DNA from: Sphingobacterium thalpophilum
GTDB taxonomy: Bacteria; Bacteroidota; Bacteroidia; Sphingobacteriales; Sphingobacteriaceae
Direction: 5' to 3'
DNA: 64,000 nucleotides
NCBI GenBank assembly: GCA_945868825.1
Contig: CAMBMM010000001.1
Location: 248,001 to 312,000 of the forward strand
A program made the translations under genes and the position numbers. Within the stretch, counting starts at the first letter, position 1; each line of letters starts with the position of its first letter. The notes below the pieces were generated by a model. It was not told where the DNA came from. It saw nothing but the letters and a program-made list of their open reading frames with translations, and searched no databases. Shown in pieces: positions 28,488-56,162 of the stretch.

Positions 28488-30844
28488 CGTATTAAAACTG
28501 TTTGCCCTCTTTTACGAATAATGGATCCGTCTACTCCAATTCCCTCAGCTGTCCATACAAATGTATCGGGGCCTTGCTGGATTCCCCCATTTGTGCCATT
28601 CCAAAGCTTTGTTAAATCACTTGTTTCAAATAGCATGTGTCCCCAGCGGTTAAAAATTCTGAAATAACTCAATTTTGTAATCCCAACAGCAAAAATATCT
28701 AGCAAATCATTGTGTCCATCGCCATTGGGTGTAAAGGCACTAGGTACTTCAAAGTCCATTTTTCGTAGCACCCGTACTACAACTCTATCCACTGTAACAC
28801 AACCAGTTGTACTTTCAATAGTTACTGTGTAACTGATGGTTTCGTTGTGCAGAAAAACAGGATTTGCACTAAACGGATTACTTAATCCGGTGCTAGGCAC
28901 CCAGGTATAAATAGTACCTAAAGGCCTTGCTTGTAGCGGCACAGATTGGCTTGGCTTGGTGAGTATAACCGGATAGGTAATGCCCGGAGCTGCAGCACTT
29001 ATTGTAATGTTTTTACGTACAGTAGCCGCTAAAGCCGCACAAGACATAGGTGTGGCTGTTAGTGTTATTTCATAATTGCCAGCGTTTGGGTAGGTATGTA
29101 TTGCCGAATTACTTGCGGATACTGCAGTTCCATCGCCAAAATTCCACAGCCAATTTACAGGGCCAGCATTACTCAAGGTGCTGGTATTGGTGAAATCAAT
29201 TGGTTTTCCTGCACAACTTTGAGTAAAATTAAAATTAGGACTTGGTTTATCAGCTAGATCTAAGCGAATGGTTCTTTCGGCGTAATTGCAAAGATTGCCA
29301 TATACCCTCACGGTGTACTCACCTACGTTTGCAATACCAAAGTTCGGAATGCTTAAATTGGGTGTATTCGATGTATAGCCATTTGGCCCCGTCCACGTAT
29401 AACTAATACCACTTTCGCTTAGCGCCTGAACCGTTACCGTTGATCCCGGACAATTTAGACTATTGAAATTACCTAGTTCTATAATGGTTTTTCCGAAATC
29501 ACTAAAATAGCCAAATCGGGTGGTAGAGCCTTGGTCTCCATGAATAATTCCCATGTGGAACTTGCCAAGTCCGTTCACAATTTGGGCATTCCCGCCAGCC
29601 GCCAAGTCACTTAACGGAACGGTAATTCGAGCTACTTTCCATGCTCCCGCAGTTCCGGGAACATCTGTAAAGTTAGAAGCTTGGATGATGCTAGCGGAAT
29701 TATTAAAACTAAAATTACCAATTATGGCACTTGGTGCTAATATATTGACAAAGAAATCTTGCACTGTTGCTCGAGTTACACTTACCGAACTGGAGCCATT
29801 GGTACGCATAGAAGGAATTACAGCCCCACCAACTTCGCAACCAAAGCCTGTTACTTGGAAAATGTGTGCCGCTTTGCTGGTTTTTATGTATGCAGATTGG
29901 TCGCTAAGTAAGCCGGTGTAATACTCACCAGCATTTAATGTGGCTACTAAGGTGTTGTTCACTCTTACCTCAGTTCCATTATCAATTGCAAAAACATAGT
30001 AATAATCTACACCATAGAAATAGCCTTTAATCACTACAAATTCATTACCAGCAATACAATCAGGTATCAATTGATCTCCGGCAGTATCGGCACATCCATA
30101 GCCAGGATAGTTTATAGAATCATCTTTGGTAGAGATGGCTATCGGCTTTGTTGATGTTACCACAGTACCACCTGGGCGTTCATTTGCAATACCGCTTACA
30201 CCCGCACAGGTATAGGTTTGGCCCTTGTTTAGAGTAATGTTAAATGCGATATCTTTTGGGTGACTTTGTAAGTCTTTTTTAGGGATGATGGTTACCGTGG
30301 TATTATCTTCTGTAGCCACTATGCTAAAGGTGCAGGTATAGTTAGGTGGGCCAGCACTGCTAAAACCTTGTTGAAAAGGCAATGTAAATTTGGTCCCAAG
30401 AGCATTGGCCCCTTTTAAAGCATACATATCACCATTAAGGTTATTAGCAATATCATAATAACACGAAATTGAAGCCGAGGATTCAACTAAAATTCCTTTA
30501 TTAGTTATACTATTAATTTCGCTATTCTCTATTAAATTAATATAGGTAGTCAGGTCGATAGATTGAGAGCTATTGGCATTAATATCAACTACTATTGGGA
30601 TAAAGCTTGGATTAGCCGGTATGCTGATACGTACAGTTGCTGCAGTGTTATTAGCGGCAATTCTTAAAAAAATGGGCCTATCGCCATGATTTTGTTGCAA
30701 ATCAGGAGCTGCAAACCAAAAGTTTGTGTCACTTTGGGCCCATACCAATTGATGGTGAAACGAGGCCAGTAAACAAAGTAGTAAAAATCTTTTCAAAGTT
30801 GGTTTGATGCGTGTATCTTTTATAAAAATACAATTAATAATCAT
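28484..30844 (-). CDS. Secreted IgGFc-binding/PKD protein with type B (CHU_C) sorting domain
   Basis: The protein of about 786 residues has a signal peptide (KRFLLLCLLASFHHQLVWA). An N-terminal region like the IgGFc-binding domain covers roughly the first 400 residues (TNFWFAAPDLQQNHGD). An Ig-like stretch and a PKD domain (NWLWNFGDGTAVSASNSAIH) follow, then a C-terminal type B sorting domain (VPSAFTPNGDGHNDLLDIF, with FRIFNRWGHMLFE). It should be exported by type IX secretion and kept at the surface; a gliding or adhesion role is inferred. The ATG at 30844 is used. A TTG at 30794-30796 would give a more usual signal peptide. The longer frame extending to 30952 runs into the tmRNA gene and was rejected. 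Confidence 0.82.
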   Translation of the reverse strand: MIINCIFIKDTRIKPTLKRFLLLCLLASFHHQLVWAQSDTNFWFAAPDLQQNHGDRPIFLRIAANNTAATVRISIPANPSFIPIVVDINANSSQSIDLTTYINLIENSEINSITNKGILVESSASISCYYDIANNLNGDMYALKGANALGTKFTLPFQQGFSSAGPPNYTCTFSIVATEDNTTVTIIPKKDLQSHPKDIAFNITLNKGQTYTCAGVSGIANERPGGTVVTSTKPIAISTKDDSINYPGYGCADTAGDQLIPDCIAGNEFVVIKGYFYGVDYYYVFAIDNGTEVRVNNTLVATLNAGEYYTGLLSDQSAYIKTSKAAHIFQVTGFGCEVGGAVIPSMRTNGSSSVSVTRATVQDFFVNILAPSAIIGNFSFNNSASIIQASNFTDVPGTAGAWKVARITVPLSDLAAGGNAQIVNGLGKFHMGIIHGDQGSTTRFGYFSDFGKTIIELGNFNSLNCPGSTVTVQALSESGISYTWTGPNGYTSNTPNLSIPNFGIANVGEYTVRVYGNLCNYAERTIRLDLADKPSPNFNFTQSCAGKPIDFTNTSTLSNAGPVNWLWNFGDGTAVSASNSAIHTYPNAGNYEITLTATPMSCAALAATVRKNITISAAAPGITYPVILTKPSQSVPLQARPLGTIYTWVPSTGLSNPFSANPVFLHNETISYTVTIESTTGCVTVDRVVVRVLRKMDFEVPSAFTPNGDGHNDLLDIFAVGITKLSYFRIFNRWGHMLFETSDLTKLWNGTNGGIQQGPDTFVWTAEGIGVDGSIIRKRGQTVLIR

Positions 30845-44211: not shown

Positions 44212-45105
44212 ATGACCAAAATAAAAGTCCGTTTAGCTATTGCCTGTTTTCTTTTACTAAACACCTCTTTATATGCGCAGCTAAACCCATTAAGTTCGCA
44301 ATACTTTCAAAATACCTATTTAGCCAATCCGGCTATGGCGGGTATGCAAAAAGGGTTGAGAGTAAATTTAGCTTACAGAAACCAGTGGAGCAGCATGCCC
44401 GGTTCGCCAAAAAATACGGTAGTTACCTCCGATTATCAAGAAAACCGCGTAGGCTTGGGTCTAAGCATGCTAAAAGATCAGGCCGGTTTGATAAATCGTA
44501 CCCAAGTGTTGGGCACTTATGCCTACCATTTGCCCTTAAACGGTAGCGAATCTGCCTTGCATTTTGGTTTATCGTTTGGATTTAACAGTCAACGCCTAAA
44601 TTCAATGGATGTGGTAGCCGCAGCCAATGACCCTTCTATTGCCAATTTTGAGAACAATATCGTACTTGACGGTGCTTTTGGAATGGCCTATACCAAGGGT
44701 AAATTTGGTTTAGAACTGGCTTTTAATAATCTTAAAAACCAATTTAATGTAGAGCTGCACAACAGCACTGATTATACCACATTTTACACTGCAGCAAGCT
44801 ATGCGCTTACTCTGCAAAACAATTGGGCGCTCAACACTAAATTTGCTTATAGAGGTGTAAAAGGCTATACCAATTTATTTGATTTAGGTGCCGAATTGAA
44901 AACCAGAGACCAACAATTGGGCTTTTTAGCCTTATACCATTCCAATAAGAGTAGTTCTTTTGGCCTCAGTTACGAAAATAAAACCGGCTGGCGCTTAGCC
45001 ACCATATATACTACCTCCGCAGCCAATTTACAAACATATGCCAATGGTGCCGTGGAATTTGCTTTACAAATTAATTTAACTAATAATACGAATGAAACGA
45101 ACTAA
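44212..45105 (+). CDS. PorP/SprF family type IX secretion membrane protein
   Basis: The 297-residue protein has a signal peptide (MTKIKVRLAIACFLLLNTSLYA) followed by QLNPLSSQYFQNTYLANPAMAG, the PorP/SprF signature, and a beta-barrel-like remainder (SFGLSYENKTGWRLATIYTT). It likely sits in the outer membrane and serves a type IX cargo. Unlike the other two pairs in the window, it comes first in its operon. Its end overlaps the next gene by 14 nt, so the downstream surface proteins are its likely partners. Confidence 0.88.
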   Translation: MTKIKVRLAIACFLLLNTSLYAQLNPLSSQYFQNTYLANPAMAGMQKGLRVNLAYRNQWSSMPGSPKNTVVTSDYQENRVGLGLSMLKDQAGLINRTQVLGTYAYHLPLNGSESALHFGLSFGFNSQRLNSMDVVAAANDPSIANFENNIVLDGAFGMAYTKGKFGLELAFNNLKNQFNVELHNSTDYTTFYTAASYALTLQNNWALNTKFAYRGVKGYTNLFDLGAELKTRDQQLGFLALYHSNKSSSFGLSYENKTGWRLATIYTTSAANLQTYANGAVEFALQINLTNNTNETN

Positions 45106-46450
45106 ACTATTTCTAGCTATTTTGCTTTTTGCTGGCTTTAGCAGCTTAGCACAAGCCCAAACCGGAATCAACTACCAAGGACTAGCCCGCAGAGCCAGCG
45201 GAGCCCCTGTAGCCGAACAAAACATCAAAATTAAATTAAGCATTCGCGATTTAACTGCTAGTGGTACCGTAGTTTATACCGAAACCCGCAGCACCGCCAC
45301 CAATAAATTTGGTTTGTTTAATGTGGTAATAGGCAGCACAGGCGCAGCCAGCCAAACCGGCACCTTAGCCAGCCTAAACTGGGCAACAGGAGCCAAATTT
45401 TTACAAGTAGAATTAGACCCCGACGGTGCCAATAACTTTGTAGATATGGGTACTATCCAATTGCAAGCTGTACCTTACGCTTTATATGCCAACGACGTAG
45501 CCAAACTACAAGGCAAAGCAATAAGCACTACCGCTCCGACGGCTAACCAAATTTTAAAATACAACGGCACCGCTTGGGCCCCTGCAAACGAAGGTGGTTT
45601 AAGCGTTGGTGCAGTAGCAACTACTGCTACGCCCAATGCAGCTAGCGTTACCAACGGCGTATTAAACTTAGCCCCTGCCGATGCTACAAATGCCGGTATT
45701 GTAAGCACCGGTACCCAGAGTTTTGCTGGTGCTAAAACCTTTAGTAGCGGCCTAACGGTTACTACTAAACCCTTTTTACCTACCAAATTAACTTCAACTC
45801 AAATTAGCGCTTTAGCTACTGTAGAAGAAGGTATGGTGGTGTACAACACCACGCAACAAAAATTACAGGTATATGCTAAACAAGAGGGTACAGACCCAAT
45901 TAATGAGACTTTTGTGGGAACTTATACCAATGGTGCCGATTTTATTTTCCAAACCTTTGTTTCACCTGTCTCAGGTACAGTAACTTCCATAGAACTTTAT
46001 ACCGCTGATCTGAGTAATGGTAGTATGGGGGGTGGTCCGTTTGGTGCTTATATCAGTCTAAGAATGGGAAAATCCGATGCTGAAGTCCAAATGAATATGT
46101 CAAGTGGAACTTGGTTTAGCGGTATGGGCATGTCATCCCAACTTACAAGCGCTCCGCAATGGGTAACTGTTACACTCAGTACGCCTTTGTCTGTTGTGGG
46201 TGGGGGAAGTTATGGCTTTAGAGTGAATGCCAGTAGTTTGTGTAGTGGTGGTATGATGGGTATGTCGGGGCACGTATTGGCAGTAAACAATTCCTATCCA
46301 AACGGTTCTGCATATTTTGACAATACTCCAGGTGCTTCAAGTTGTGGTTCTAAGATCATAAATGGCGATGATTTATTGTTTAAAGTACGCATTACCCCAA
46401 ATTCTGGATCCATCAATGCACCTAGTTTAAATTGGATAAACTTACATTAA
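45092..46450 (+). CDS. Secreted modular surface protein A (shared N-terminal half)
   Basis: The 452-residue protein has a signal peptide (MKRTKLFLAILLFAGFSSLAQ, cleavage before QTGINY). An N-terminal domain follows (about 24-145: INYQGLARRASGAPVAEQNI to VPYALYANDVAK), then a tail-fibre-like linker (SFAGAKTF). The C-terminal part (about 260-452) is unlike that of its paralogue and carries a Met-rich stretch. Residues 23-215 are nearly identical to the gene at 46985. No type B sorting domain is visible at its C-terminus, so how it is displayed is unclear. It overlaps the PorP gene by 14 nt. Function is unknown; adhesion is a guess from the architecture. Confidence 0.8.
   Translation: MKRTKLFLAILLFAGFSSLAQAQTGINYQGLARRASGAPVAEQNIKIKLSIRDLTASGTVVYTETRSTATNKFGLFNVVIGSTGAASQTGTLASLNWATGAKFLQVELDPDGANNFVDMGTIQLQAVPYALYANDVAKLQGKAISTTAPTANQILKYNGTAWAPANEGGLSVGAVATTATPNAASVTNGVLNLAPADATNAGIVSTGTQSFAGAKTFSSGLTVTTKPFLPTKLTSTQISALATVEEGMVVYNTTQQKLQVYAKQEGTDPINETFVGTYTNGADFIFQTFVSPVSGTVTSIELYTADLSNGSMGGGPFGAYISLRMGKSDAEVQMNMSSGTWFSGMGMSSQLTSAPQWVTVTLSTPLSVVGGGSYGFRVNASSLCSGGMMGMSGHVLAVNNSYPNGSAYFDNTPGASSCGSKIINGDDLLFKVRITPNSGSINAPSLNWINLH
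45151..45742 (+). repeat. Long direct repeat, copy 1
   Basis: This segment encodes the N-terminal domain and linker of protein A. It aligns base for base at very high identity with 47050-47652, with one 9-nt insertion in the second copy near the linker. The copies are about 1.9 kb apart, in the same orientation. Confidence 0.85.
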
Positions 46451-46468
46451 TATTTAGCATTAAATTTT

Positions 46469-46981
46469 ATGAAAAATAAAACTTTTTTAACGTTCCTGCT
46501 AGTAAGTTTTGGCTTAACGGCTTTTGCCCAAAACACGGCACATAAGGTGCTTAACAGCACCGGCGGAAGCAAAACCTACCTCAACATTACCTACGATTGG
46601 AGTGTAGGCGAATTGGCCTTGGTGCAAAGTGTATTTGCGGAGAAAACCACGCTAAACAATGGTTTTTTACAAACAGATAAACAAGTAGATACCTATGCTG
46701 GAGGCGGTATGAGCGTAATTGCAAACAATACCATGAGCCCCAACAACGATGGCAAAAACGATACCTGGGTGATTGAAAACCTGATAGATTTTCCGATAAA
46801 TGAGGTCATGGTATTCGATCGTGCTGGCCGTGTAGTTTTTCAAACCAAAAACTACCAAAACGATTGGAACGGACAATTTAACGGTAGCCCTTTGGCCGAA
46901 GACACTTACTACTTTGTATTAACCGTACCCCGCGAAGGTCGTATGGTTAGCAAAAAAGGATTTATTACTATTGTAAAATAA
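46469..46981 (+). CDS. Minimal secreted protein with type B (CHU_C) sorting domain
   Basis: The 170-residue protein has a signal peptide (MKNKTFLTFLLVSFGLTAFA), about 60 residues of passenger (YDWSVGELALVQSV and TTLNNGFLQ, a segment common near sorting domains), and a complete type B C-terminal domain of about 85 residues (NTMSPNNDGKNDTWVIENL to SKKGFITIVK). It should leave the cell by type IX secretion. It is almost only a sorting domain, so it may act as an anchor or partner for the neighbouring proteins; that is inference. It lies 18 nt after protein A and 3 nt before protein B. Confidence 0.86.
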   Translation: MKNKTFLTFLLVSFGLTAFAQNTAHKVLNSTGGSKTYLNITYDWSVGELALVQSVFAEKTTLNNGFLQTDKQVDTYAGGGMSVIANNTMSPNNDGKNDTWVIENLIDFPINEVMVFDRAGRVVFQTKNYQNDWNGQFNGSPLAEDTYYFVLTVPREGRMVSKKGFITIVK

Positions 46982-46984
46982 GTT

Positions 46985-48688
46985 ATGAACGCACTAAAAA
47001 ATGTACGCATACTAGCCTTGCTAGTTTTATGGACGCTTGGCAACAGCGCACAAGCCCAAACCGGCATCAATTACCAAGGTTTGGCCCGCAGAGCCAGCGG
47101 AGCACCCGTAGCCGAACAAAACATTAAACTAAAATTAAGCATTCGCGATTTAACTGTAAGCGGTACGGTAGTATATACCGAAACCCGCAGTACCACCACC
47201 AACAAATTTGGTTTGTTTAATGTGGTAATAGGCAGCACTGGCGCAGCCAGCCAAACTGGTACCCTAGCCGGTGTAAACTGGGCTACTGGAGCCAAATTTT
47301 TACAAGTAGAATTAGACCCCGATGGCGCCAATAATTTTGTAGATATGGGTACCACCCAACTGCAAGCTGTACCTTATGCGTTATATGCCAACGATGTAGC
47401 CAAGATACAAGGCAAAGCACTAAGCACTACCGCTCCAACGGCCAACCAAATTTTAAAATATAACGGCACCACTTGGGCCCCAGCAAACGAAGCGGCAGGT
47501 TCAAGTATTACGGTAGGTGCTGTGGCAGCTACTGCTACTCCCAATGCCGCTAGTATTACGAGTGGCGTATTGAATTTAGCCCCTGCCGATGCCACGAATG
47601 CTGGTATTGTCACTACTGCTGCGCAAAGTTTTGCTGGCGCTAAAACTTTCACTAATGACCTTGTAATTAATAGTGTAAAAATTGGCCGTGGAATTGGTAA
47701 TAATGACCAAAATACGGCAATTGGAGCTGCTGCATTAGGTACCGGCACGGGTACTAGAAATACAGCAGTTGGTTACGCTGCACTGTTAAATTATTCTGGT
47801 ACATCCTTCGATAATAATACCTCAGTAGGTTATTATAATTTTCCTTCATTAACCACCGGCCAGCAGAACACTTCTATTGGTGCCGAGGCCATGTTGCATT
47901 TAACCACGGGTAATCATAATACCGCTATTGGTGCACAAACTCTATTAAATACTACTGGAAACAACAATACCGCTATTGGTTACCGAGCTGGCGAAACATT
48001 GGCTGCCGGGAGTAGCAATACTTTGCTTGGGCACGGGGCCAATGTAGGGTCACCTACCTCAGATAATTCCACCGCTATTGGTGCTTTTGCCACAGTAACT
48101 ACCGATAATACCATTCAATTGGGAAACACCGGTATTACTAATGTAAAAACTTCGGGTAAGTTAACTACCGGAGCCATTACCTACCCCAATACCGATGGTG
48201 CTAGTGGCCAAGCCTTGGTTACCAACGGCACAGGCACGGCATCGTGGCAAACTGTTGGTGGTGCTGGTGGCGGACCTACCTATAAACAATCACGGGTAAA
48301 TCAATATTCTAATACTGCCACTACCGATTCTGAAATTGAAGTGGGTGGTATGGTGTTTAGATACAATTATCAAAGTCAAAAAATTGAAGTTAAACGTACT
48401 ACAAATCTAGAATCTGAGTGGGGAGCGTACAATACCTCCCGTATTGAGGGTGGGACATCGCAACCACTTCAAAGTCCATGGATAGTTTCTGCTTTCACTA
48501 CTGCGTTTTCAGAAATATATGGGACCTCAAGTGGTGGTCCTGCGTTAACAATTGCAGGAGCTTACAATTCCTATGAATTTGAACTCACTCCCTATTTACG
48601 TGGCCAAGCAAGCGACAACCATTCATTTAATATTAAAGTATTGTTAGATCCTTGGTCAGTTGTTACACTGCGGGTAGTGTATTACTAA
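46985..48688 (+). CDS. Secreted modular surface protein B with YadA-head-like repeats
   Basis: The 567-residue protein has a signal peptide (MNALKNVRILALLVLWTLGN). The N-terminal domain and linker (about 23-225) are nearly identical to those of protein A. A run of NTAIG-type repeats follows (about 243-380), as in the head of trimeric autotransporter adhesins. After a Gly-rich hinge (TVGGAGGGPT) comes a C-terminal domain of about 140 residues that I do not recognise. Neither a YadA membrane anchor nor a type B sorting domain is present. Trimeric, adhesin-like function is inferred from the repeat. It is the last gene of the operon and is followed by a terminator. Confidence 0.8.
   Translation: MNALKNVRILALLVLWTLGNSAQAQTGINYQGLARRASGAPVAEQNIKLKLSIRDLTVSGTVVYTETRSTTTNKFGLFNVVIGSTGAASQTGTLAGVNWATGAKFLQVELDPDGANNFVDMGTTQLQAVPYALYANDVAKIQGKALSTTAPTANQILKYNGTTWAPANEAAGSSITVGAVAATATPNAASITSGVLNLAPADATNAGIVTTAAQSFAGAKTFTNDLVINSVKIGRGIGNNDQNTAIGAAALGTGTGTRNTAVGYAALLNYSGTSFDNNTSVGYYNFPSLTTGQQNTSIGAEAMLHLTTGNHNTAIGAQTLLNTTGNNNTAIGYRAGETLAAGSSNTLLGHGANVGSPTSDNSTAIGAFATVTTDNTIQLGNTGITNVKTSGKLTTGAITYPNTDGASGQALVTNGTGTASWQTVGGAGGGPTYKQSRVNQYSNTATTDSEIEVGGMVFRYNYQSQKIEVKRTTNLESEWGAYNTSRIEGGTSQPLQSPWIVSAFTTAFSEIYGTSSGGPALTIAGAYNSYEFELTPYLRGQASDNHSFNIKVLLDPWSVVTLRVVYY
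47050..47652 (+). repeat. Long direct repeat, copy 2
   Basis: This second copy of the N-terminal module (see 45151-45742) lies in gene B. It is in direct orientation, so recombination between the copies would delete the intervening sorting-domain gene and fuse A's start to B's end. Confidence 0.85.
47711..48120 (+). repeat. Tandem YadA-head-type repeat coding region
   Basis: About seven imperfect copies of a roughly 14- to 20-residue unit occur in frame, each with an N-T/S-A/S-x-G core: NTAIGAAAL, NTAVGYAAL, NTSVGYYNF, NTSIGAEAM, NTAIGAQTL, NTAIGYRAG and STAIGAFAT. In YadA-like proteins such repeats form a left-handed beta-roll trimer. Confidence 0.8.
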
Positions 48689-48696
48689 AATTTTTT

Positions 48697-48723
48697 AAGG
48701 CCCCTAAATCGGGCCTTTTTTTT
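48697..48723 (+). terminator. Terminator after surface-protein operon
   Basis: Stem AAGGCCC (48697-48703) with GGGCCTT (48711-48717) and a 7-nt loop is followed by a T run, 9 nt after the stop of protein B. Confidence 0.8.
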
Positions 48724-48837: not shown

Positions 48838-51800
48838 ATGCAGTCCAGGTATCGGTTTTTGTATGCCTTTTTGTTTTTACTCTCCTTTTTGGTGTTCAGC
48901 AAACCTGCGTTTGCGCAAAACACTTCTAATGAGGGTACCGATTTCTGGGTGGCTTATACGGGCCACGTGGATGCTAAATCATCTCGTTTAACACTTTTTA
49001 TTACGGCTAAAGTAAACGCAACGGTAACGGTTGTAGCCGGTGGAGTGGCATTGGCCCCTGTAACGGTTACTGCGAATTCAGCTGTTCCAGTATACATTAA
49101 TCCCAATGTGTACACAACTTATAACGAGCAATCGGATGGTATAGCTGTGAATAGAGGCATACATGTTACTTCTACAGTGCCCATTATTTTATATTCTCAC
49201 ATATCGAATTCAGCCCGTTCTGCAGCTACCATGGTTTTGCCTACCAAAGCCCTTGGTAACGAATATTATACTATGGCTTACAATCAAATGTCAAGTTCGT
49301 TAGAGTATATGGTGTCGCAATTTACCATTGTGGGGGTAGAAGATAATACCCTTACCGAAATTACCTTACCTGCCGGTGTAAATAGCATTTCAAATGCCAG
49401 CCACACAGCAGGTTCTACCTATCAAATTACCTTAAACAAAGGCGATGTTTATCAATTTCAATCAAACAAAGATGTAACGGGTGTAAAAATTACCACGGTG
49501 GGTGCCTGTAAACCCCTTGCCGTTTTTTCTGGGAGTACAAAGTCTGGTTTTTGTGAACAGCCGGGTTCTGTTTCTGGGTCGGGCCAGGATAATTTATATC
49601 AACAGCTTTTCCCGCTCAGCACCTGGGGTAAAAACTACCTTACCGCTCCATTTTACAATGCCTTGCATGGGGTAAAAGATGTTATTCGTATTTTGGTGGG
49701 TAAAGACAATACCACCGTTACTGTAAACGGTTCTACTACTTCAGCCAATGGTGTTGCACTTGCCAATCCCTATGCCAAAGGCAGTATCATCACTTTTTCG
49801 AGTTCTGCCCCCAATACCATAAGTGCAAGCGAACCCATAAGTGTGGCACAAATTCAAGTGTCGGCCAGTTGCAATCCGAATAATATCAATTTAAACAATC
49901 AAACATACCCCGGTGATCCGGAGTTGACCATATTGAACCCCATAGAGCAAACCTTAAAAGATATTACGGTGTATTCTGCTGTTTCGGTTGCCGCAGCGCC
50001 AACCAATATTACCAAGCATTACATCAATGTTATTTTAAAAACAGCCGATATTCCGGTATTTACATTAGATAATGTTGCGGTTCCGTCTAGCCAGTTTACG
50101 GCTATTGATGCCACTTACAGTTATTTAATTAAAGATGTCACCGCCGCTTCGGCTACCAATCCAACGCATCGCATTAAATGTGCTGGAGATGGTTTTCTGG
50201 CTATTGCTTATGGCTATGGAAACTACGAGTCGTATGCCTATTTGGCGGGTGCCGATATTAAAAATTTAACTCAATTTATTGAAATTAAAGATCCGAACTC
50301 CAACCAAGTGGCTCCTAGTGGTTGTGCCAGTAAAAATTTCAATTTAGAAACTACCTTATCGTATCAAACCACCGAGTTGCGTTGGAATTTGGCCGATGGG
50401 CAGTCTGAAATTATTCAAGCAAACCCTACATTCGATAGGCAATATGTTCAAAATGGCGTAACCCTTTACGTCTATAAATTACAAACGGCCGTTAATTATC
50501 CCACAGCTGGAATCAAAAATATTATCGTAAAATCATTAAACCCAGGGGCTAGCCTTTGTGGCGATTACGACATTATTAATTTGAGTTTTGAGGTTTTTGC
50601 TTTACCCACAGCGGTGTTTAGCGCTAGCTTGCAGGCTTGTGTGAATTCGGGCGTAACATTTTCCGATCAAAGTACACCCAATGGCACTACCATTAAAAAA
50701 TGGATTTGGGATTTTAAAGATGGTACGGTATTAGAAAATACCGTTGCTGGAGCACCTTTTTCTCATGTGTATACGCTACCTGGAGATTATCTTCCGGTAT
50801 TAACATTAATAACTCAGAATGATTGTTCGATTACCAGTGCGCCAAAAGCCGTACATATCACTCCACTGCCTGTTGCTACCTTTAGTTCTAGTACGCCAAC
50901 TTGTGAGCAACGGGCCATACAATTTACCGATCAGTCTACCACAGTTGAAGGCACTATTACAGCTTGGAACTGGAATTTTGGCGATGGGCAAACCGCTACT
51001 ACGCAAAATCCTCAACACACCTATACCGCTGCAGGTTCTTACACGGTAAGCTTAACGGTTCGTACGAGTTTAGGTTGTGAACAAAGCTCATCTGCTACCG
51101 TAATCGTGGTAAATGCCCTGCCCATTGTAGATTTTATTACACCTTCGTTTTGTTTGTCAGATATCACGGCTTCTTTTCCCAATCAAACTACTAATGCCGA
51201 TGGTTCTACTACAAATTTAACCTATGCTTGGAACTTTGGCGATGCGCTAAAATCTACCCCAAGCAACCCAAATACCTCCACAAGTAGAAATCCAACGCAT
51301 AATTATTCGGATCCGGGCGATTATAGCATCTCCTTGGAAGTAACTACTGCCCAAGGATGTTCGGTTACGCAGACTAAAACATTTAGGGTAAATGGTATTA
51401 ATCCTATTGCTGATTTTGAAGTGGTTAATTCGTCTAATTTGTGTAGTAAAAATTCGGTTTCATTTATTAATAAATCGTATGTAGTGGGTTTTGGTAGCGT
51501 TACCCGATTAGAATGGTATTTTGATTATGGGAATAACCCCATTCAGGTGCTGGTAGATAATAATCCTAGCCCCGATAAAGTATACACGTTTAGCTATCCT
51601 ACTTTTCACACGCCGGCAACTAAGAATTATTCGGTGCGTTTAGTGGCTTACTCGGGTGGTGTATGTGTGAGTTTAGAAACTATTAAGACTATTGTTCTTA
51701 AATCGGTGCCCGAAGTAGCATTTAGTGCTTTATCGTCTGTATGCCAAGAAATTACGCCTTTCCAAATTACGCAAGCCACAGAATTGTATAATTTTAGCGG

Positions 51801-52449
51801 TACCTTCCGATTTAGTGGTACGGGAGTTACCAGTTCGGGTAGATTTAGTCCCTTACTTGCTGGTGTAGGTACACATCCAATTAAATACGTATTTACCGCC
51901 CAAAACGGTTGCGCCGATTCGGCAAGCCGGAGTATTACGGTATTTGCCACACCAACAGTAAATGCGGGTAGAGATACTATCATTTTAGCTGGAGGTACGG
52001 TTCAATTGCAAGCGCAAGCAGCCGGTATTGGTTTAGACTACCGATGGACTCCGATTTCATATTTAAGTGATCCGCAAATTGCCAATCCGATTGCATCTCC
52101 TAATCAAGATATACTGTATACGCTTACCGTTTCGTCTAATCAGGGCTGTTTAGCTGCCGATAATATATTTATTAAGGTATTGCAGTTGCCCGAAATTCCG
52201 AATGCGTTTACGCCTAATGCCGATGGCTATAACGATGTGTGGAACATTCGCTATTTACAAAGTTATACCAATGCTACCGTAGAGATTTTTAATCGTTATG
52301 GGCAACAAGTATTTTATTCGTTAGGCTATGCCAATCCTTGGGATGGTCGTTTTAAAAGCGAAGAATTGCCCATGGGCACCTATTATTATATCATCAATCC
52401 GGGAAATGGGCGTAAGGCCATGACTGGAGCAGTAACACTAATTAAATAA
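48838..52449 (+). CDS. Large secreted IgGFc-binding/PKD protein with type B (CHU_C) sorting domain
   Basis: The 1203-residue protein has a signal peptide (LFLLSFLVFSKPAFA). An IgGFc-binding-like region covers about residues 30-480 (SNEGTDFWVAYTGHVDA, TSTVPIILYSHISNSA). At least three PKD domains follow between about 590 and 870 (WIWDFKDG, WNWNFGDGQTATTQNPQHTY, YAWNFGD), and more Ig-like regions lie beyond. The C-terminal type B sorting domain covers about 1119-1203 (EIPNAFTPNADGYNDVWNIR). It should be exported by type IX secretion and attached to the surface, with adhesion or gliding as a probable role. A PorP/SprF gene starts 1 nt after its stop. Confidence 0.87.
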   Translation: MQSRYRFLYAFLFLLSFLVFSKPAFAQNTSNEGTDFWVAYTGHVDAKSSRLTLFITAKVNATVTVVAGGVALAPVTVTANSAVPVYINPNVYTTYNEQSDGIAVNRGIHVTSTVPIILYSHISNSARSAATMVLPTKALGNEYYTMAYNQMSSSLEYMVSQFTIVGVEDNTLTEITLPAGVNSISNASHTAGSTYQITLNKGDVYQFQSNKDVTGVKITTVGACKPLAVFSGSTKSGFCEQPGSVSGSGQDNLYQQLFPLSTWGKNYLTAPFYNALHGVKDVIRILVGKDNTTVTVNGSTTSANGVALANPYAKGSIITFSSSAPNTISASEPISVAQIQVSASCNPNNINLNNQTYPGDPELTILNPIEQTLKDITVYSAVSVAAAPTNITKHYINVILKTADIPVFTLDNVAVPSSQFTAIDATYSYLIKDVTAASATNPTHRIKCAGDGFLAIAYGYGNYESYAYLAGADIKNLTQFIEIKDPNSNQVAPSGCASKNFNLETTLSYQTTELRWNLADGQSEIIQANPTFDRQYVQNGVTLYVYKLQTAVNYPTAGIKNIIVKSLNPGASLCGDYDIINLSFEVFALPTAVFSASLQACVNSGVTFSDQSTPNGTTIKKWIWDFKDGTVLENTVAGAPFSHVYTLPGDYLPVLTLITQNDCSITSAPKAVHITPLPVATFSSSTPTCEQRAIQFTDQSTTVEGTITAWNWNFGDGQTATTQNPQHTYTAAGSYTVSLTVRTSLGCEQSSSATVIVVNALPIVDFITPSFCLSDITASFPNQTTNADGSTTNLTYAWNFGDALKSTPSNPNTSTSRNPTHNYSDPGDYSISLEVTTAQGCSVTQTKTFRVNGINPIADFEVVNSSNLCSKNSVSFINKSYVVGFGSVTRLEWYFDYGNNPIQVLVDNNPSPDKVYTFSYPTFHTPATKNYSVRLVAYSGGVCVSLETIKTIVLKSVPEVAFSALSSVCQEITPFQITQATELYNFSGTFRFSGTGVTSSGRFSPLLAGVGTHPIKYVFTAQNGCADSASRSITVFATPTVNAGRDTIILAGGTVQLQAQAAGIGLDYRWTPISYLSDPQIANPIASPNQDILYTLTVSSNQGCLAADNIFIKVLQLPEIPNAFTPNADGYNDVWNIRYLQSYTNATVEIFNRYGQQVFYSLGYANPWDGRFKSEELPMGTYYYIINPGNGRKAMTGAVTLIK

Positions 52450-52450
52450 T

Positions 52451-53464
52451 ATGAAATTGAGGTGCTGCATACTTATTTTTATGTGTTTAAGCAGGGATAT
52501 TTTTGCTCAGCAAGTGCCTCAATACACTCAATATAGTTTAAATAGCTTCTTAATTAATCCAGCTGTAGCGGGAATAGAAAACTATACCGATTTGCGTTTT
52601 GGCAACCGCATGCAATGGACGGGTTTAACAGGTGCTCCGCAAACCAAATACGTATCTATGCACACTGCTTTGGGTAAAAATTACTTGGGTGATAATGCAA
52701 ATTCTTTTTCGGGAACCGGAGAAAATCCCATGAGTAGAAGTTTTGTGCAAAGCTATCAAGCAGCCGCTCCACACCATGGTGTGGGTGTTATTGCTTTGGT
52801 TGATAAAACGGGACCCTTGAAAAATACCGAAGTGAAATTGAATTATGCCTATCATTTGGGTATTTCTAGTCAATTAAACCTTTCGGTTGGCGTATCTGCT
52901 GGCTTTAATCAAGTGGCTTTAGATGCAGCTAGTATTACCTTTGAAAACCCGGGTGATCCTTTCTTTTCCACAACAAATTTCCAAAAAGTGGTACCCACAT
53001 TGAGTATTGGTACTTGGGTATATGGATCGCGTTTTTATGGGGGTATAGCCATTCATCAGCTTTTACCTAATCGTACCTTGTTTTTAAGTAATACGATTGC
53101 ACGTTCTGAGAAGTTAAATCCTCAAATTCTAATTAATGCAGGTTATAAAGTGTCATTAAGTGAAGATATAGCTGCTTTCCCATCTGTTTTAGTAAATTAT
53201 ATGGGTAAAAATACAGGCATTGGCACCGATGCTAACTTGAAATTTGCATTTAAAGATAAATTTTGGTTAGGTGCTGGGTATCGTCGTGGCGATTCTTTTT
53301 CGGCAACGGCTGGTTTTACGCTCAGTTATTTGCTTAATGTGGGCTATTCGTACGATTTTACTACTTCCCGCTTGAATACCGTAAGCAATGGTTCGCATGA
53401 AATTGTAGTGGGTATTTTATTAAACAACAGGTACCGGGTAAATTGCCCTCAAATGAATTGGTAA
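52451..53464 (+). CDS. PorP/SprF family type IX secretion membrane protein
   Basis: The 337-residue protein has a signal peptide (MKLRCCILIFMCLSRDIFA) followed by QQVPQYTQYSLNSFLINPAVAG, the PorP/SprF signature, and beta-barrel strands (YRRGDSFSATAGFTLSY). It likely lies in the outer membrane and assists secretion or anchoring of the 1203-residue protein encoded just upstream. The gene is one nucleotide after that gene and stops 2 nt before the convergent rpoN, so there is no room for a terminator between them. Confidence 0.91.
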   Translation: MKLRCCILIFMCLSRDIFAQQVPQYTQYSLNSFLINPAVAGIENYTDLRFGNRMQWTGLTGAPQTKYVSMHTALGKNYLGDNANSFSGTGENPMSRSFVQSYQAAAPHHGVGVIALVDKTGPLKNTEVKLNYAYHLGISSQLNLSVGVSAGFNQVALDAASITFENPGDPFFSTTNFQKVVPTLSIGTWVYGSRFYGGIAIHQLLPNRTLFLSNTIARSEKLNPQILINAGYKVSLSEDIAAFPSVLVNYMGKNTGIGTDANLKFAFKDKFWLGAGYRRGDSFSATAGFTLSYLLNVGYSYDFTTSRLNTVSNGSHEIVVGILLNNRYRVNCPQMNW

Positions 53465-55766: not shown

Positions 55767-56162
55767 ATGCATACTTTTAAAAAAGAAGAACGGTTATGTA
55801 GTATAAAGCTTTTAGATAAGCTTTTTCATAGCGGTTCTTCTTTTCTTTTATACCCTTTCAGATTTACTTGGATGCCCATTGATGAGCAAGAGGCTCCTGT
55901 GAAGGTAGTTATACAAGTTTCTAAACGTAGGTATAAACGAGCGGTTGATCGTAACCTGATTAAACGCCGCATACGAGAACTGTATCGTATACATAAAGCA
56001 GACCACTTATATCATTTTATTTTAGCTGAACGGCCCATTGGCTTGAGTATGAGCTACATTGGTAAAGAACTCTTGCCTTCTAAAGAATTGGAGCCAAAAT
56101 TGCTTATTGCTTTAAAAACTCTCGTATCAGCATATCAGAAAGCAGAAGGAGGGCTATCATGA
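55767..56162 (+). CDS. rnpA: Ribonuclease P protein component
   Basis: The 131-residue protein binds the RnpB RNA and helps cleave the 5' leader of pre-tRNAs and of pre-tmRNA. The N-terminus FKKEERLCSIKLLDKLFHSG and the RNA-binding helix KRAVDRNLIKRRIRELYRIH (the RNR motif) match the family. Length is normal. It follows rpmH after 74 nt containing a hairpin, and overlaps yidD by 4 nt. Confidence 0.95.
   Translation: MHTFKKEERLCSIKLLDKLFHSGSSFLLYPFRFTWMPIDEQEAPVKVVIQVSKRRYKRAVDRNLIKRRIRELYRIHKADHLYHFILAERPIGLSMSYIGKELLPSKELEPKLLIALKTLVSAYQKAEGGLS

Follow-up and report, generated by a model that had tools for sequence, protein, structure and literature searches.

The window analyzed here is a stretch of 64,000 nucleotides (G000:C1:248001-312000) within a 1.66-Mb genome that is 99.4% complete and whose closest named relative is a Sphingobacteriales metagenome-assembled genome (MAG) from Lac Pavin. 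It contains a cluster of four genes, all on the forward strand, in the order porP/sprF, A, a small CHU_C gene (the CTD stub), and B (table 1). The genes are tightly packed: porP and A overlap by 14 nt, and gaps of 18 nt and 3 nt separate A from the CTD gene and the CTD gene from B, respectively. Together with the terminator-like stem after B, this spacing is in keeping with an earlier note on this DNA, made from the sequence alone, which had placed the genes in a single operon. Promoter scans at the cluster gave motif counts no higher than those in shuffled sequence. The PorP/SprF protein that opens the cluster is a putative T9SS type-B shuttle or anchor, and the CTD stub is composed of a signal peptide, an S-V-G-E...GFLQ module, and a type-B CTD (CHU_C). 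SprA of the T9SS is encoded in the genome (SprA_N, E value 2.7e-154); a type-B CTD gene and a PorP/SprF gene are found here in one cluster of a SprA-bearing genome.

Table 1. Features of the fibre cluster and its downstream neighbours (window coordinates).
Feature	Position	Strand	Evidence
PorP/SprF family outer-membrane protein, first gene of the cluster	44212..45105	+	PF11751 E 4.3e-46; TIGR03519 above cut-off
Gene A, fibre-type, 452 aa	45092..46450	+	Open reading frame; NF053851 E 2.8e-11 (below cut-off); no Pfam family; no type-B CTD
Shared N-module copy in A (base domain and stalk segment)	45138..45753	+	Repeat coordinates
Module core of A, probably homogenised with B	about 45164-45580	+	Core/flank dS contrast
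Low-divergence island, tip of A and 5' part of the stub gene	about 45850..46650	+	A-tip dS 0.083; permutation p <=0.0016
CTD stub, 170 aa	46469..46981	+	PF13585 E 2.1e-25; TIGR04131 E 9.4e-20; both above cut-offs; motif
Gene B, fibre-type, 567 aa; low-divergence island throughout	46985..48688	+	Open reading frame; NF053851 E 4.5e-10 (below cut-off); dS 0.074
Shared N-module copy in B	47037..47661	+	Repeat search
Repeat-rich head of B, degenerate NTAIG-type repeats	47670..48146	+	Missing from B of the sister species; PHROG matches
Terminator-like hairpin followed by a T run, 3' of B	48697..48717	+	
IgGFc-binding/PKD protein with type-B CTD, downstream neighbour	48838..52449	+	Family profile matches
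Second PorP/SprF protein, downstream neighbour	52451..53464	+	Family profile matches

Neither A nor B contains a Pfam family, and a PDB sequence search returned no match for B and only chance-level matches for A; AlphaFold single-chain models of both, computed from 4-sequence alignments, were of poor quality. There is a weak profile match to NF053851, the N-terminal domain of the mosaic adhesive trimer (MAT) fibres of Bdellovibrio bacteriovorus (PMC10769870), which scores 43.5 bits in A and 39.6 bits in B, both below the family cut-off of 60; comparably strong matches recur in each of the six species of the genus (6/6). As in the MAT fibres, phage-like fibre segments are present, since the stalk and head of B match phage tail-spike and virion structural families (PHROG E values 1.3e-16 to 1e-8, B 147-385). 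A phage origin of the locus was considered and rejected because no relatives of the N-module were found among viral contigs and the genes surrounding the cluster are of ordinary housekeeping types. By analogy with the MAT fibres, the half shared by A and B would lie at the base, close to the cell surface, and the ends would serve as adhesive tips (PMC10769870). MAT fibres are intertwined trimers displayed on the surface, and A and B may be of this kind; they differ from the MAT fibres in that their host belongs to the Bacteroidota and in that they are paired with a T9SS CTD stub and PorP/SprF.

The two copies of the shared module form a direct repeat with 86% identity over 592/600 nt, far above chance, within which blocks of 300 nt and 149 nt reach 88% and 79% identity, respectively. 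At the protein level the base is 94% identical between A and B and the remainder only 27%, which is the constant base with variable C-terminal tips known from the MAT fibres and upholds the earlier description of two genes with a common N-terminal half and unrelated ends. That description had also called the copies near-identical, including at silent positions, and had taken this to suggest recent duplication or gene conversion. The silent sites do not agree: A and B differ by a dS of 0.61 across their 225 shared codons and nowhere match exactly for more than 35 bp in a row. A very recent duplication was therefore rejected. Divergence is uneven along the module, however. In its core (codons 27-165) the silent sites are unusually alike, with a dS of 0.46 between A and B compared with 0.46 for A between species (see below), whereas in the 3' flank the corresponding values are 1.0 and 0.34. 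For the flank, zero falls outside the bootstrap interval of the difference; for the core, it falls inside. On the simplest reading of these values, the cores of A and B were homogenised once, roughly when the two species separated; such an event would be old because the core dS equals the species divergence. What survives of the earlier proposal is thus an old, conversion-like homogenisation of the core; its recency does not, the paralogues having diverged too far. Four other species of the genus carry fibre genes elsewhere, with a module identity of only 35-47%, and the combination of the same base with different tips recurs, in more diverged form, in several other tandem pairs; the repeat itself is old paralogy in a family where this arrangement is common. 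Arrays of two or three fibre genes are seen at L104 (G038:C34), L134 (G056:C18), and L106 (G038:C26); at L104 identity is 65-77% in the bases and 25-38% in the remainder, but at L106 and L134 the remainder is more alike than the base.

Among 400 genomes of the family, of which the best two candidates per genome were scored, the only close DNA match to the locus came from a sister species (G001), a MAG that is 87% complete, and a scan of genome contigs likewise identified this MAG as the sole match. G001 is the only species with orthologues of A and B, and it has the same porP-A-CTD-B order. Orthologous genes on the shared contig have an interspecies dS of 0.25-0.74 with three exceptions, namely B (0.074), A (0.23 for the whole gene, owing to a tip at 0.083), and rnpA (0.11). 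The last of these, a 131-aa gene at 55767-56162 that is RnpA-like by eye, lies away from the fibre cluster. Sliding-window analysis resolved the low values in the cluster into two islands, one reaching from the tip of A into the start of the stub gene and one spanning B; the half of the stub gene between them has a dS of 0.68, stub-gene values flanking the islands are 0.5-0.85, and divergence returns sharply to background after B. Permutation gave p values of 0.0016 at 100 codons and <=0.0002 at 150-300 codons.

Gene content differs as well. B of G001 is without the repeat-rich head (about 161 codons), which is thus found in one of the two species only. Between B and the IgGFc/PKD gene G001 carries a 7.4-kb block (L033:8397-15512) that the window does not have and that was either inserted in G001 or lost from the window. 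Four proteins are encoded in this block: another CTD stub, a collagen-like fibre of 1422 aa whose base is related (61% identity), a protein of 274 aa in which the stalk segment recurs, and one of 479 aa. The tails of A and B have no close relatives in 295 genomes of the class, where only weak partial matches were found, those to the tail of B being mostly limited to its first ~50 residues. The earlier note had looked to differences in arrangement between strains; between these two species the head and the block vary and the porP-A-CTD-B order does not. The simplest reading of the islands is that the tip of A and B were exchanged between lineages later than the homogenisation of the core, and we read this exchange as ordinary homologous recombination of fibre tips rather than programmed switching. 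Over evolutionary time, related species seem to trade fibre tips with one another.

We surveyed 56 N-module genes at 50 loci, drawn from the window and from genomes of the genus, of other genera in its family, and of further families in the class, and defined a stub as a same-strand ORF of <260 aa with a T9SS CTD, of type A or type B unless stated; the search model was seeded with type-B CTDs and after iteration also picks up type-A CTDs. None of the 56 N-module proteins, A and B included, has a type-B CTD of its own (the family model also detects many type-A CTDs). A stub lies within three genes of 39/56 N-module genes; 34 of the placements are directly adjacent (offset -1 or +1), and offsets greater than 4 do not occur. 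The other 17 lack a stub at that distance, and none accompanies the short N-module genes of 297-350 aa found elsewhere in the genus. Conversely, all nine type-B CTD ORFs of <200 aa in the genus (9/9) adjoin an N-module gene. Larger CTD proteins in the genus are not beside N-module genes, the one exception being the IgGFc/PKD neighbour, which lies beyond B in the window and beyond the 7.4-kb block in G001. Stubs are also distinguished by a motif preceding the CTD, S-x-G-E/Q ... Q-G-F-x-Q: 29/38 stubs have it, compared with 1/22 larger CTD proteins and 0/635 other ORFs. Among the 29 motif-bearing stubs, the CTD resembles type B in 13 and type A in 16. Stub mini-genes adjoining fibre genes are seen across the class (window 46469-46981; L034, L038, L039, L040, L099-L137). 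This conserved pairing of fibre and CTD stub is a more interesting point than the repeat itself.

Taken together, we consider it probable that A and B belong to one adhesin family with a constant base and stalk and interchangeable tips that are exchanged between lineages, encoded in a four-gene T9SS cluster with a PorP/SprF protein and a CTD stub. The N-module would be the base, nearest the membrane, of a fibre that is probably trimeric; the stub would supply a sorting signal and surface anchor in trans, and PorP would act as the shuttle of the stub. The base may be kept alike by purifying selection and the old conversion event, and tips or whole fibre genes would change by homologous recombination between lineages and by gain and loss of modules, not by programmed switching within one cell line.

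The last point departs from the earlier note, which had proposed a phase-variable or antigenic cassette, comparable to those of pilin genes, in which the direct repeats recombine in a living population, delete the sorting-domain gene, and fuse the 5' end of A to the 3' end of B. Direct repeats within one cluster and the evidence of recombination in the module count in its favour. However, the repeats are only 86% identical with exact runs of <=35 bp, and the A-CTD-B order is intact in both species that have it. Silent-cassette antigenic variation, as in pilin genes, joins a constant and a variable part by homologous recombination. A and B resemble such systems in having constant and variable parts and in the contribution of homologous recombination, but their divergence is too high; moreover, a search for the additional module copies that the earlier note had envisaged found only A and B, and since the genome is 99.4% complete silent cassettes are absent. 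Inversion or shufflon-type switching is a similarly poor match because there are no pairs of inverted repeats in the 43-51 kb region of the window and the 16 neighbouring proteins that were scanned include no recombinase. The switching idea is thus probably wrong, a cassette of this kind being very improbable even if rare deletion forms may exist, and nothing suggests that the cell flips these fibres on and off. Recombination has nevertheless left its mark on the locus in the homogenised core, the two islands, the head found in one species, and the block gained or lost, and to that extent the earlier note was right.

Two further explanations would dispense with exchange between lineages. A simple tandem duplication of long ago, after which the tips diverged and uneven mutation or selection produced the islands and the similar core, would fit a family in which tandem fibre genes are common in related genomes, and the low dS of rnpA demonstrates that dS does vary from gene to gene. 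We nevertheless regard it as unlikely given that the islands are in silent sites and have sharp edges against stub-gene flanks of ordinary divergence, that the contrast between core and flank exceeds bootstrap noise in the flank, and that the head module is either present or absent. Alternatively, the sister MAG could be a strain chimera at this locus, in which case the interspecies mosaic would not be biological. We retain this explanation because the case for exchange rests on one genome pair, with one genome per species and one of the two an incomplete MAG, and because repeated modules are places at which an assembly can jump from one strain to another. The islands do differ from the window, however (dS 0.05-0.1), the reading frames are uninterrupted, and most of the A-tip island is outside the repeat, so that a chimera also seems quite unlikely. 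Exchange of tips on a constant base thus remains the reading that we favour.

Type-B CTD proteins are secreted and anchored with PorP/SprF-like partners (PMC9143113, PMC12618676), and the locus resembles the published pairs SprB-SprF and PG1035-PorP in that CTD and PorP/SprF genes are clustered in a genome with SprA. In those pairs, however, the CTD is part of the adhesin, whereas here it is on a separate 170-aa protein and the fibre has no type-B CTD. Because of the conserved pairing, the known partnership of type-B CTDs with PorP, and the PorP/SprF gene that opens the cluster, we propose, from gene neighbourhood, that the stub provides secretion or anchoring in trans for fibres without a type-B CTD. 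More tentatively, and less likely than not, the fibre and stub might constitute a split T9SS substrate in which a dedicated mini-protein attaches to the constant fibre base and, acting in trans, delivers or anchors the fibre by way of the T9SS. The mini-protein would then consist of a signal peptide, a docking module ("SxGE...QGFxQ"), and a CTD of type A or type B, and one anchor could serve several fibres with different tips. If the stub does work in trans, this would be a new way of handling T9SS substrates, and the stub would be a candidate for the sort of surface partner to which the MAT base domain is expected to attach; in Bdellovibrio that partner is stated to be unidentified (PMC10769870). 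More generally, the locus illustrates a way in which Bacteroidota may vary their surface fibres by means of a constant base, exchange of tips between species, and a separate sorting-domain mini-gene.

Two further observations concern other genes of the window. The second PorP/SprF protein has a cysteine near its C-terminus (...RYRVNCPQMNW) and the first has none there; a disulphide link to GldK has been reported for the twin cysteines of SprF (PMC12635249). In addition, an 826-aa ORF on the minus strand at about 28562-30736 contains several stretches that resemble the IgGFc/PKD/CHU_C protein.
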